Shown here piece after piece: positions 1 through 10,661 of a stretch of DNA of 64,000 nucleotides. The DNA comes from Fodinicurvata sediminis DSM 21159 (GTDB lineage: Bacteria > Pseudomonadota > Alphaproteobacteria > Kiloniellales > DSM-21159), in contig NZ_ATVH01000017.1 in the NCBI RefSeq assembly GCF_000420625.1, positions 124,001-188,000 on the forward strand, written 5' to 3'. Within the stretch, counting starts at the first letter, position 1. Each line of letters starts with the position of its first letter. A program made the translations under genes and the position numbers. The notes under the pieces were generated by a model that was given only the letters and a program-made list of their open reading frames with translations, searched no databases and was not told the origin of the DNA.

Positions 1-1
1 T

Positions 2-74
2 ATCGTCAAAACCATTTAATATCAGACAATTAGGTTTGCGAGATTATTGCCAGTGATCGTCAAGGTATCGTCAA
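2..74. repeat. Three copies of ATCGTCAA
   Basis: The octamer ATCGTCAA occurs at 2-9, 56-63 and 67-74; the last two are spaced by one helical turn (11 bp). The segment is A/T-rich and carries no gene. Direct repeats of this kind can be integrase arm sites, iterons or regulator sites, but nothing here decides between these. It lies at the left edge of the window, so further copies may be cut off. Confidence 0.4.
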
Positions 75-170
75 GTTGCCGTCCGCCTGGTCTCTGCCCA
101 CAGGCTTGCCCTTGCCTACCTGCCCGCCAGTATTGGTAGATCAGCCTAGGGGCATCCATCTCCCTCACCC

Positions 171-238
171 CCAGGCGCGCGGGTCCTTCCTAGGGGATAT
201 CCCTTGTACGGGACCCGCAGCCGCGCCGCTTCGCCAGA
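171..238. repeat. 68-bp direct repeat, copy 1
   Basis: This block is repeated, with scattered substitutions, at 460-527 (offset 289 bp). Shared landmarks are GGCGCGCGGGTCCTTCC, CTTGTACGGG and CCGCAGCCGC. Neither copy lies in a convincing gene. It is probably what remains of a duplicated gene segment downstream of the primase copies. Confidence 0.55.
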
Positions 239-459
239 CTCTCAGGGCTGAGAAGTCCTTAACAGAGTTAACATCTGGGGTCTTGGCTTAACCGTCTGCT
301 TAACACTGCAGCTGTCACGGGCAGTGAGCCGGGGTGCCATGAGTGGTCGGACGATCTGGAAGCTTCGGCGATCGGTGCGGTTGAGCCTGCCTGCCTTGCC
401 CTGCTGGCAAGACCAGGCTTGAGGTAATGCGATGGAGTGAGGGAATAGGCTTCTCGGCC

Positions 460-527
460 CCTGGCGCGCGGGTCCTTCCAAAGGGTGTCCCTCTTGTACG
501 GGCACCGCAGCCGCAGAAATTCGCCAG
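460..527. repeat. 68-bp direct repeat, copy 2
   Basis: Second copy of the block at 171-238. Read on the minus strand it gives an Arg/Gly-rich stretch that is broken by a stop in the other copy, which fits decay from a once-coding sequence. The 300-odd bases around it hold no supported gene. Confidence 0.55.
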
Positions 528-679
528 CTGCAACAGCCACGTTTGATGCAACGGCGGTCCTTGCGCAACAGTGCAACAGTGGGGATCTGTGCCTGTTCAA
601 GGGTGCGCTCAACCTGTCTGACACCTTCGGTTTGAACTATCGTGAGCTTCCGGATAGCTGTCCCGGAATCACACTTCCC

Positions 680-1117
680 TTCCGGATCGCCGTCCAGGCA
701 GAGCAGAACCTCTTGCACTTCCTTGGGCAGGACCAAGGCGCGCATGCCACCAGTGGAAAGTGCAGCCCAGGTGGGCAGGTCGGGATCCGCACTCATGACG
801 GACAGGGCCGTTTCGATGCCCTCAGCCAGAGCCAGTCTCGCGCCTGCCGGTGCCAGTCGGACAGCCCCGGCCTTGATCGGCCCCAACGTCATCTTGGTTT
901 CCGGGACCGGGGCCTTGCCGCCGTCCGGAGACAGGAAGGTTCGATGGACCGCGACCAGGTGGAAGCTGTTGCCGTCCGGGGCCAGCCGCTGAACAGCGGA
1001 TATCATCGCCGGGAAGTGTTGCCCGCTGGGGCCGTGCTTCGCCCTGGGGTGAAAGCGCAGCGCCGGGGGTAGAGGATCCACGGTGATTCCCCGGCTGCGC
1101 AGATAGCGTTCCGGCAA
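680..1117 (-). pseudogene. Internally deleted, truncated copy of the Toprim primase
   Basis: On the minus strand this is near-identical to residues about 146-289 of the intact primase at 1589-2572, including the Toprim motifs EGIETA and CLDGDPEG. Its first codons match the primase start (the MPER equivalent, beginning at a TTG) and then jump straight to RYLRSRG, so about 140 N-terminal codons are missing. After CLDGDPEG the reading frame runs on into about 150 residues of unrelated sequence (to about 242). The domain that replaces the zinc finger and the C-terminal end are therefore both lost. It is most likely a dead tandem duplicate. Confidence 0.75.
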
Positions 1118-1120
1118 GAT

Positions 1121-1275
1121 GGTCTCAGGCTCCCGGTTCCTTCAGCCGCACGTTTGCGCGGCTACCATTCGCCGGGAAGAAGACACCCCCAGCGCACGCG
1201 GTGGCCTTCCTCCTGGAGGCGGTGTCCGGGCTCAAGGCCTGCGCGTTCGCCTTCCGAGTCCCCGTCCTGGCAAGG
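1121..1275 (-). pseudogene. Fused remnants of the XRE regulator 3' end and primase 3' end
   Basis: Bases 1121-1185 match the last codons of the small HTH gene (compare 2573-2640: GGTCTCAGGC, CCGGTTCCTTCAGCCGCACG). They are joined directly to bases 1190-1275, which match the 3' part of the primase gene (compare 1645-1735: GCACGCGG, GGCCTTC, GAAGCGGTGTCCGG). The order shows a module duplication (HTH plus primase) followed by deletion between copies. No open frame survives. Confidence 0.65.
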
Positions 1276-1588
1276 CAGAGCCTCTCACCTTCTGGTGAGG
1301 GACCAGGGCGCCTGTGTGATTGATAGAGCGTGCCGACCAGGTGGACAGGGTGGCATCAGGAAGCGCACTCCACGGGGATGAGCACCCAAGGCCCATGGAT
1401 ACAGCAATGAGCGGGGATGGCCTGCCTGTCGATCGAGCGTTTATCCGGAGCCAATGTCTGGCCATGGCCCTTGGTCTTGCCGGGCCTGAAGTGGGCCGGG
1501 TCAGCCGGACAGTGCGGCGCGTCTGTCAGCTCTCCTGCCTGGCCATGCAGCGTCCAGGGATCGAGAACACGCCCGCCTGATTGTTCTC
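1276..1588. other. Non-coding remnant region between primase copies
   Basis: I see no gene here. It lies downstream (3') of the intact primase and upstream of the fused remnants. Short open frames exist on both strands, but none has a ribosome binding site or a recognisable product. It probably consists of decayed sequence from the duplicated module. Confidence 0.4.
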
Positions 1589-9189: not shown

Positions 9190-9301
9190 TCGGTAGTGCG
9201 ATTGGGGCGGCTCCTTGACCCTCTTCAATCCCTTATACCCTGCTGGCACTGCAGACAGGGTCATTCTTCGTACTGTCTTTATCCATGAAGCCTATCTGGT
9301 A

Positions 9302-9688
9302 TCAGGCCTGCCAGAAGAACAGCAGATCACCGTAACCCCAGATGATCGTCCCCAGGATGGCCATGAAGATAGCGATCCTCTGAAACATCAGCTCTACTGG
9401 GGTATCTGAGGTAAGTGGTAGGTTCACAAGTAACGAAGCCTCTATATCCTGATGCCTGGTTTTCGCGACCTTCCTTGTTTCGAGGAATTCCAGCCAGACA
9501 GCAAAGAGCACCATCAGCGATCCTGCACGCTGGAACCAGGTGCCCCCATCAGATAGCAGCCAACTCAGCAGCAGAGACCCCAGGGCGGGCAGAACAGCCA
9601 GTGCGGTTAGTGTCCACTCTGTCAGGTAGTCTTTCGAAAACGATTTCCTCAGGTCACTCAGAATTGCTTGGGAATGATCTGCTCCCAT
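9302..9688 (-). CDS. Small integral membrane protein of unknown function
   Basis: A 128-residue protein with about three hydrophobic segments: roughly 26-45 (LTALAVLPALGSLLLSWLL), 51-68 (FQRAGSLMVLFAVWLEFL), and 104-124 (IAIFMAILGTIIWGYGDLLF). It ends in a short cytosolic or periplasmic tail. A cytosolic loop of about 35 charged residues joins the last two. Similar small proteins occur as accessory genes in many bacteria, with no known function. It is transcribed against the island replication genes and next to a second membrane-anchored protein, so the pair may form one cargo unit. Confidence 0.6.
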   Translation of the reverse strand: MGADHSQAILSDLRKSFSKDYLTEWTLTALAVLPALGSLLLSWLLSDGGTWFQRAGSLMVLFAVWLEFLETRKVAKTRHQDIEASLLVNLPLTSDTPVELMFQRIAIFMAILGTIIWGYGDLLFFWQA

Positions 9689-9807
9689 TCACCCCTCTCT
9701 TGATGGGCGGTTGGACGCCCTGCCATTTCACGGGTATTGATGCTCCCTGGTAACCAGTAACTGCGATGGTGAGCCAATAGCAAGGTAGACGTGCAAGGGG
9801 GTATGGC

Positions 9808-10353
9808 ATGGAACAGGAGCTGGTCTCTCAGTTGCTCATGCGTGTGGCAGAGCTACAAGCCACCGTGGAGAGCCAGAAGCCTTCGCTTTGGGCAACACTT
9901 GGGCCGCCCGCTATTACAGGCATTGTCGGCTTCCTGGCGGCAATTGTGCCGACAGCCTGGCTGGAACGGCGAAGAGTGAAGCATCAGGCCCACACGCTCC
10001 GGCGATCCCTGATCGCTGAGGTTTCGGCGATCTGCGAAATAATACGGGTGCGCCAGTATCTCGAAGGTTTACAGGCAGGAGCTGAGGGCAGGATTTCTTA
10101 CTTCACCGTCCCCATTCCGGAAGACTATTTCAGGGTCTATAGGGCGAATGTCGATAAGCTTGGGACGCTGGATCAGGAAGATGCCTTCCGTTTCGTGCGG
10201 TTCTATCAAATCCTCGAGAGTGTCATTCAGGATGTTACCCCAGGTGGGGTCTTGTACACTGGCCAAGGTGGAACGAAAGGCTTCAAGCAGGCCTATGTCC
10301 TGATGCAGTCAGCAGTCTATATTGCAGAGGAACTGATATCCGGACATCGTTAA
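9808..10353 (+). CDS. Membrane-anchored protein of unknown function
   Basis: A 181-residue protein. After a short N-terminal helix (1-24) comes one hydrophobic segment at about 30-50 (LGPPAITGIVGFLAAIVPTAW), then a basic stop-transfer (LERRRVK) and a long helical cytosolic domain (55-181) with no motif I know. AAGGGGG lies about 9 bases before the ATG. The topology (one membrane helix plus a helical domain) is common in uncharacterised accessory genes of islands and prophages. It is divergent from the small membrane protein at 9302-9688. Confidence 0.65.
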   Translation: MEQELVSQLLMRVAELQATVESQKPSLWATLGPPAITGIVGFLAAIVPTAWLERRRVKHQAHTLRRSLIAEVSAICEIIRVRQYLEGLQAGAEGRISYFTVPIPEDYFRVYRANVDKLGTLDQEDAFRFVRFYQILESVIQDVTPGGVLYTGQGGTKGFKQAYVLMQSAVYIAEELISGHR

Positions 10354-10500
10354 ACGGTGCAGGGGCAGGAATAAAACATTCCCCATGTTTTTCCACCGGC
10401 TGCCCTGGTGGCTTCTGGTGACGTGGAAGTGATAGCCCTCACGCTGGGTTGTGCCGGTATTGGCAGGCCAGACTCCGCAGCCCCTGAAATTTATTCCCGT

Positions 10501-10519
10501 GCTTCCAATTTGCTTCCAA
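10501..10519. repeat. Direct repeat GCTTCCAA with 11-bp spacing near the tRNA end of the island
   Basis: GCTTCCAA occurs at 10501-10508 and again at 10512-10519, one helical turn apart. It sits 70-90 bp from the 3' end of the tRNA-Thr gene, where integrase arm-type sites are found in elements that use tRNA genes. Functional assignment is inference. The stretch 10354-10586 holds no gene I can support. Confidence 0.35.
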
Positions 10520-10533
10520 ACGAATTTCGCGAG

Positions 10534-10552
10534 CGCCAACCTTAATTTGGCG
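10534..10552 (-). terminator. Weak hairpin downstream of tRNA-Thr
   Basis: CGCCAA at 10534-10539 pairs with TTGGCG at 10547-10552 around a 7-base loop. It lies 35 bases beyond the tRNA 3' end on the minus strand; directly after the CCA is a run of six T residues (10581-10586 as A on plus). The six-base stem is short and lacks its own T-run, so termination is uncertain. Confidence 0.3.
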
Positions 10553-10586
10553 TCCGTCGTAAACATTTGATTATACATATAAAAAA

Positions 10587-10661
10587 TGGTGCCGACGGAG
10601 TGATTCGAACACTCGACCTACTGATTACGAATCAGTTGCTCTACCCCTGAGCTACGTCGGC
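10587..10661 (-). tRNA. tRNA-Thr(CGT)
   Basis: Read on the minus strand, this forms a full cloverleaf: acceptor GCCGACG pairing with CGTCGGC, discriminator A and an encoded CCA; a D arm with GCTCAGGGGTAGAGC; an anticodon stem ACTGA/TCAGT with loop TTCGTAA (anticodon CGT, reading ACG); and a T arm GAGTG-TTCGAAT-CACTC. Its 3' end faces the accessory island, the standard arrangement for an element integrated at a tRNA gene. Confidence 0.95.

Follow-up and report, generated by a model that had tools for sequence, protein, structure and literature searches.

Related systems and the locus

The Rep helicases of SaPIs recognise iterons directly downstream of their own gene, and specific binding has been shown for Cch2 of SCCmec (PMC7581432). 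Replication of the Streptomyces plasmid pFP11 is reported to require a rep gene and iterons that are bound by Rep (PMC3583192); this Rep is not equated here with the helicase homologue discussed below. Further systems of comparable layout are the PICMIs of Vibrionaceae (PMC10803314) and the P4-like satellites (PMC8628076). In a limited literature search we found no alphaproteobacterial satellite family. Here we describe a complete integrative element of 12,623 bp in the alphaproteobacterium Fodinicurvata sediminis DSM 21159 (genome G000), located at G000:C17:122011-134633. The window, i.e. the whole stretch of 64,000 nucleotides that was analysed, corresponds to G000:C17:124001-188000. It contains the right 84% of the element, which starts 1,990 bp beyond the window start and ends at window position 10633.

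The element shares with P4-like satellites a tyrosine integrase with an Arm-DNA-bind_3 domain, a tRNA site, an AlpA-like protein, replication proteins and cargo, but the Psu, delta, epsilon and alpha families were not found in it. Like PICMI, it has int, alpA and a primase gene as recognisable mobility genes, att repeats, unassigned genes between alpA and the replication gene and no capsid-remodelling gene. It differs from PICMI in length (12.6 kb versus 6 kb), in location (tRNA-Thr versus beside fis) and in having a Toprim (DUF7146) primase and a separate helicase instead of a DUF3987/DUF5906 primase; in addition it carries cargo, and its helper is only a candidate. The replication module of SaPI/PICI and of SCCmec (Cch/Cch2) also combines an initiator helicase, by model of the same broad fold, with a companion primase and short iterons. 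Identity in the structural alignment is however about 11-12%, the iterons of the element are not downstream of the helicase gene, its primase is a DnaG-like Toprim protein, and recombinase, regulator and host are unrelated. The plasmids pFP11 and pH6Ac (the latter archaeal) encode a helicase homologue together with a primase, separate or fused, and have short repeats nearby, but both are autonomous plasmids without the integrase of the element.

Boundaries and integration genes

The sole tRNA in the window is tRNA-Thr(CGT). Comparison of the tRNA region with its own genome revealed, 1.94 kb before the window start, a 53-bp match of 100% identity (C17:122011-122063). The two copies flank the following integration features:

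10581-10633, no strand: attR, 53-bp repeat including the 3′ 47 nt of tRNA-Thr(CGT); its exact copy attL (C17:122011-122063) is outside the window
10587-10661, minus strand: tRNA-Thr(CGT), identified by ARAGORN, left intact by the insertion
10500-10520, plus strand: right arm-type repeat TGCTTCCAATTTGCTTCCAAA; the left twin (C17:122227-122247) is outside the window
C17:122321-123694, plus strand, outside the window: tyrosine integrase, 457 aa (Phage_integrase E = 7.1e-18, Arm-DNA-bind_3 E = 1.3e-17)
6209-6598, plus strand: AlpA/Xis-like HTH_17 protein, 129 aa (HTH_17 E = 4e-14, phrog_66 excisionase E = 4.5e-12)

The integrase gene begins 257 bp inside the attL repeat. The perfect 21-bp repeat TGCTTCCAATTTGCTTCCAAA consists of two GCTTCCAA units. 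Measured inwards from the core repeats, its left copy is at a distance of about 163 bp and its right copy at 60 bp, and we read both copies as arm-type sites because they are located where such sites are expected. The G+C content of the element is 58.6%, that of the flanks 63-67%.

To a genome of the same genus (G001), a query made of the joined flanks aligns as a single stretch (C9:11181-11858, 83% identity, query positions 458-1153 with the core at 501-553). There the intact tRNA is followed directly by left-flank sequence; the site is empty of the element. Beyond a short left-flank stretch (approximately 47 bp) G001 departs into a glycosylation cluster. This loss of synteny on the left side has another cause, and the tRNA site itself is element-free. 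The cluster on G001:C9 (L035:1-11000) contains glycosyltransferase and ABC-transporter genes as well as a transposase beyond the corresponding tRNA end. A short dispersed palindromic repeat of the CCGCCGTAAGGCGGCG type is located just left of attL (C17:121871-121918) and recurs on contigs C3, C4 and C24 of G001.

The exact 53-bp flanking repeat, the perfect repeated site TGCTTCCAATTTGCTTCCAAA near both ends and the uninterrupted site in the sister species argue that this block did not arise by chance. With direct att repeats of the tRNA 3′ end, an integrase inside one end and an empty site in a relative, it has the features of a tRNA-targeted integrative element, and from the sequence we regard its integrative nature as established. 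An earlier note on this DNA had proposed a mobile island ending at tRNA-Thr(CGT), with an AlpA/excisionase-like protein inside and the integrase and left end outside the window, and had suggested extending to the left to find an integrase and a repeat of the tRNA 3′ sequence; both are present just left of the window. Two observations that the note had named as speaking against an island, continuous synteny with relatives lacking the element and a left side without repeat and integrase, were not made, since repeat and integrase are there and the G001 site is empty. The extent needs correction: a block at the tRNA 3′ end is indeed present, but the island runs 1.99 kb further left than the window, and its right limit is the repeat end at 10633, not 10661.

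Replication genes and an unmodelled helicase family

1589-2572, minus strand: Toprim (DUF7146) primase, 327 aa (Toprim_3 E = 2.7e-20, DUF7146 E = 5.8e-33, phrog_510 E = 1.2e-60)
242-1580, minus strand: Toprim/xre region repeated in tandem as two decayed copies, in pieces 95% and 65-85% identical
7507-9189, plus strand: replicative-helicase-type P-loop ATPase, 560 aa (Walker-A motif and profile, relatives, structure model)

The Toprim primase, already recognised from the letters alone, is borne out by its three family matches; its match to TraI_TIGR covers an internal stretch only and is far under the cut-off. Region 242-1580 does not hold separate genes but the two decayed copies, which imply past duplication or stacking of related elements.

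The P-loop replication ATPase was also found as predicted. No model of Pfam, PHROGs or NCBIfam reaches its cut-off for this protein (the best, AAA_16 with E = 1.8e-4, is below the gathering score), and 13 aligned relatives likewise were not placed in one family. For the helicase family of which the ATPase is a member, these three collections contain no dedicated model; the family occurs in phages and plasmids, including one archaeal plasmid. The Walker-A motif GEQGSAK and other motif residues are conserved in the 13 relatives. Relatives have 27-43% identity; eight others were found among 289 sampled alphaproteobacteria, and more on plasmids of Methylobacterium, Stanieria, Streptomyces, Chlorohelix and Methanothrix, in Microbacterium phage Zeta1847 and in 168 viral contigs (80 kept). 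Scans of viral contigs with the single ATPase, Toprim or cargo proteins gave no match; only the alignment query reached the relatives. A primase gene precedes the helicase gene in many of them (Toprim in several alphaproteobacteria, primase-polymerase in Streptomyces), and in pH6Ac and phage Zeta1847 the helicase homologue is part of a longer protein. This widespread initiator-helicase family lacks its own model, so satellite and island finders relying on such models can easily overlook the elements in which it is used.

An AlphaFold2 model of the ATPase, built from 31 sequences, has a pLDDT of 83.8. The best PDB matches in Foldseek are SCCmec Cch (1.4e-9), AsfvPrimPol, the SaPI5 primase-helicase (2.0e-7), the C-terminal region of NrS-1 and poxvirus D5/E5, with low TM-scores of 0.3-0.56 that therefore place the fold class and not a close relationship. 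The modelled fold appears to match the P-loop core of D5/SaPI-Rep-type initiator helicases, a resemblance of structure and not of function. The predicted C-terminal secondary structure (strand, three helices, strands) would be compatible with a winged helix. A sequence search of the PDB with the helicase profile was uninformative and returned only Walker-A matches to ABC transporters. One distant relative of the helicase (L043, G280:C2:745500-764500) is located near a tRNA-Val and large genes resembling a multi-gene defence or DNA-repair cluster.

A candidate replication origin

1-77, no strand: right part of the candidate origin; the whole (C17:123754-124077) starts 247 bases before the window and extends to about position 77

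The candidate origin is located between int and the decayed Toprim copies. For the 6-bp motif GAC[AG][AG]T (GACRRT), which was defined after inspection, 12 hexamers were counted in 416 bp; 0.72 are expected, and the maximum in 5000 simulations with the same dinucleotide frequencies was six. The hexamers form two opposed clusters, the left one reading rightwards and the right one, except for one copy, leftwards. Spacing within the clusters is 9-11 bp, and the 143-bp middle between them is 68% A+T. The densest 300 bp hold 10 hexamers, compared with a maximum of 3-4 elsewhere (in 53 kb of flanking sequence and in 57 kb of C19). At 10 of 20 helicase-family loci, a tandem array of 9-11-bp units located at the helicase 3′ end or shortly behind it exceeds shuffled sequences in our judgement. 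Several of the arrays have a CGGAC(G/A)G unit; units such as CGGACGG/CGGACAG of L014, L020, L037 and L038 resemble the repeats of the element. Autonomous replication of the element is supported by comparison.

Satellite markers, candidate helper and related elements

No head, tail, packaging (terminase, capsid) or lysis family was credibly matched in the element with PHROGs (orf86, orf153 and orf163, listed below, left out); Pfam and NCBIfam scans of its proteins yielded no relaxase and no mating-pair or transfer family, and the family scans no partition or coupling gene. This agrees with the earlier statement that no structural, packaging or transfer genes are in view. Among Pfam matches up to E = 1 the P4-like families Psu, delta/Ogr, epsilon and alpha (PF07455, PF04606, PF10554, PF03288) are absent from the element proteins. 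The P4-type AlpA family PF05930 was not matched either; the AlpA-like protein matches HTH_17 (PF12728) and phrog_66. From the PICMI marker set, integrase and AlpA (PF05930 or PF12728) are present. The DUF3987/DUF5906 primase is not, its place being taken by the Toprim_3/DUF7146 primase together with a helicase for which no Pfam model reaches its cut-off, and the site is tRNA-Thr(CGT) and not next to fis. Capsid and packaging genes of its own, as in cfPICI, were not credibly matched within the same PHROGs scope.

The source genome contains a prophage that is a possible helper. No HK97-type capsid (PF05065) was found in this genome, and the prophage was therefore located via its primase. It occupies G000:C19:20823-57388 (L169, L170, L173; 36,566 bp) with a 49-bp att at tRNA-Lys(CTT) and encodes a podovirus-type head-tail connector, major head, tail and internal virion proteins. 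It also has its own Toprim primase and a helicase (phrog_21086) whose gene is followed by GTAACGC repeats. The length ratio of element to prophage, 0.345, resembles that of P4 and P2; such coincidences are easy to find, and it is not used as evidence. The element offers a clean, bounded and testable case with a candidate helper in the same genome.

Two similar alphaproteobacterial elements were delimited, which have an AlpA-like protein and the same helicase family (34-40% identity) and no phage structural family among the proteins scanned. The first (G175:C27:1816-21853, L042/L045) is 20.0 kb long, is bounded by a 58-bp repeat at tRNA-Leu(CAA) and has the order int-AlpA-Toprim-helicase; the second (G149:C1) is 9.1 kb long, with a 16-bp repeat at tRNA-Ser and the order int-AlpA-helicase, and no Toprim gene was recognised in it. 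Each of the three complete elements has its integrase at the far end from the intact tRNA, whereas in the C19 prophage it is next to the tRNA. In G022, a genome of the same order, AlpA-orf163-helicase and the closest integrase found in the order (53%) are on separate short contigs. How far this search reaches depends on which genomes were sampled and on breaks between contigs.

The G022 integrase (L057:3-1376, G022:C160) contains an in-frame insert of approximately 95 aa just before the HxLRH box, which is 42% identical to the N-terminal domain of the Toprim primase of the element; this copy is at a contig end, and an assembly cause is possible. The integrase of the element has an unrelated insert of about 50 aa at the loop matching this position.

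Proposed mechanism and alternative explanations

2577-2819, minus strand: XRE-type regulator, 80 aa (HTH_31 E = 2.6e-6)
2847-2885, no strand: operator-like inverted repeat TTGTCCTGATATCGTA-N7-TACGAATTCAGGACAA, with 16-nt arms, 88% complementary, and a 7-nt gap

The palindrome is located between the divergent genes xre and orf86, which agrees with the XRE switch with a palindromic site proposed earlier; a second operator copy was sought in the element and not found. Ends, integrase, empty site, gene content and iteron-like repeats can be read directly from the sequence; from them we infer how excision, replication and transfer may proceed. The XRE protein would hold the element silent from the palindrome until a signal arrives. 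The integrase and the AlpA/Xis-like protein, together with the GCTTCCAA sites, would recombine the 53-bp att sites and release a 12.6-kb circle. The 560-aa ATPase, as an SF3/D5/SaPI-Rep-like initiator helicase, may bind the opposed GACRRT iterons and open the A+T core, and priming by the Toprim protein would yield a multicopy circle or concatemer. Because no recognisable shell, packaging, relaxase or transfer genes are present, element DNA would reach new cells in the vehicle of a helper, most simply in phage capsids. We consider it probable that the locus is an integrative element, complete and non-conjugative, whose replication module is satellite-like and which works in this way. The earlier reading as a small integrative element ending at the tRNA is fully borne out; for the reading as a phage satellite, no P4-like family, capsid or terminase was matched, and only part of the PICMI set is present. 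A satellite-like lifestyle is supported by the helicase fold near SCCmec Cch and the SaPI5 primase-helicase, the iteron-like origin and the resident podovirus-type prophage. Phage-satellite status is plausible and carriage by phage a reasonable assumption. The earlier reading, right on the mobile island at the tRNA and on its likely kind, is partly supported overall.

Several observations weigh against this reading. The Toprim and helicase genes are far apart in the element and adjacent in relatives, and about 7.5 kb separate the iterons, which are beside int/Toprim, from the helicase gene, whereas SaPIs have them downstream of this gene. The definition of GACRRT after inspection and the low TM-scores count here as well. 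A search for packaging-signal mimicry found no DNA common to the element and the C19 prophage beyond similar primase genes and tRNA parts, and no known helper-phage interference gene was recognised in the element. The distance between iterons and helicase gene, with the arrays of relatives at the helicase 3′ end, would also fit GACRRT repeats that serve transcription or integration, replication then starting elsewhere or being absent. We regard this as unlikely, given the tandem spacing of 9-11 bp, the two opposed clusters around an A+T-rich core and the core unit common to the helicase arrays of L014, L020, L037 and L038.

Clearly less probable than a satellite-like element, but a serious alternative, is an integrative plasmid or a mobilizable island with circular replication that is moved by conjugation in trans (from an unrecognised oriT), by transformation or by generalised transduction. 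Methylobacterium plasmids of 18 and 20 kb with a similar XRE protein (and AlpA in one) use this helicase family, as do archaeal pH6Ac (12 kb) and, with primase-polymerase, Streptomyces plasmids, and no phage-interference gene was recognised in the element. Relaxase, partition and coupling genes are however lacking, and a tRNA-directed tyrosine integrase combined with AlpA/Xis and arm sites is how integrative elements and satellites are laid out. We consider it very unlikely that the locus is a decayed prophage, immobile after the loss of its structural genes. The decayed Toprim copies at 242-1580, the presence of the helicase family in phages and a weak phage-like similarity of a regulator would agree with this, but the att repeats are perfect, the open reading frames (ORFs) of integrase, AlpA, primase and helicase are intact and the sister species lacks the element, which indicates that it was inserted recently and is intact; no head, tail or lysis remnant was found, and two other bounded elements with a similar backbone have no structural gene among the scanned proteins. 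The satellite-like reading can be widened: the element and those of G175 and G149 might form an undescribed alphaproteobacterial phage-satellite group on unmodelled SaPI-Rep-like initiator helicases recognising GGAC-type iterons, with the module exchanged among phages, plasmids and satellites across bacteria and archaea and the resident podovirus-type prophage (36.6 kb, 2.9x the element length) as helper. In this full form we hold it to be rather doubtful.

Cargo and remaining genes

2901-3161, plus strand: orf86, weakly similar to Phage_Gp111 (E = 2.6e-4, below cut-off)
3204-3485, plus strand: orf93, no assignment in Pfam and PHROGs scans
3526-4056, plus strand: orf176, at best distantly S24-like (E = 0.28)
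4342-6063, plus strand: cargo ORF, 573 aa, no detectable relative, 53% G+C
6601-7062, plus strand: orf153, between alpA and the helicase gene, no assignment in family scans
7055-7546, plus strand: orf163, between alpA and the helicase gene, no assignment; weak relative in G022
9302-9688, minus strand: small hydrophobic, probably membrane protein, 128 aa, 53% G+C
9808-10353, plus strand: cargo protein, 181 aa, 55% G+C, with plasmid relatives

The label S24-like that orf176 had carried is rejected, its match being below any cut-off. The unknown cargo announced earlier includes the 573-aa ORF, for which no relative was detected in plasmids, phages and the sampled 289 alphaproteobacterial and 398 Pseudomonadota genomes and which has no PADLOC, Pfam, PHROG or NCBIfam match. 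Its single-sequence AlphaFold2 model (pLDDT 38) was unusable. This ORF and the two small genes beside attR have 53-55% G+C, compared with 57-69% for the other genes of the element; the lower G+C suggests that they were acquired later than the rest. The three proteins are regarded as cargo, possibly directed against phages. The cargo of the G175 element comprises a cluster of SLATT, Ogg, QueC and ThsB-like TIR genes for which a defence function is plausible. The 181-aa protein has relatives close to DarT or restriction-modification genes or inside a prophage, a context that hints at a role in defence.

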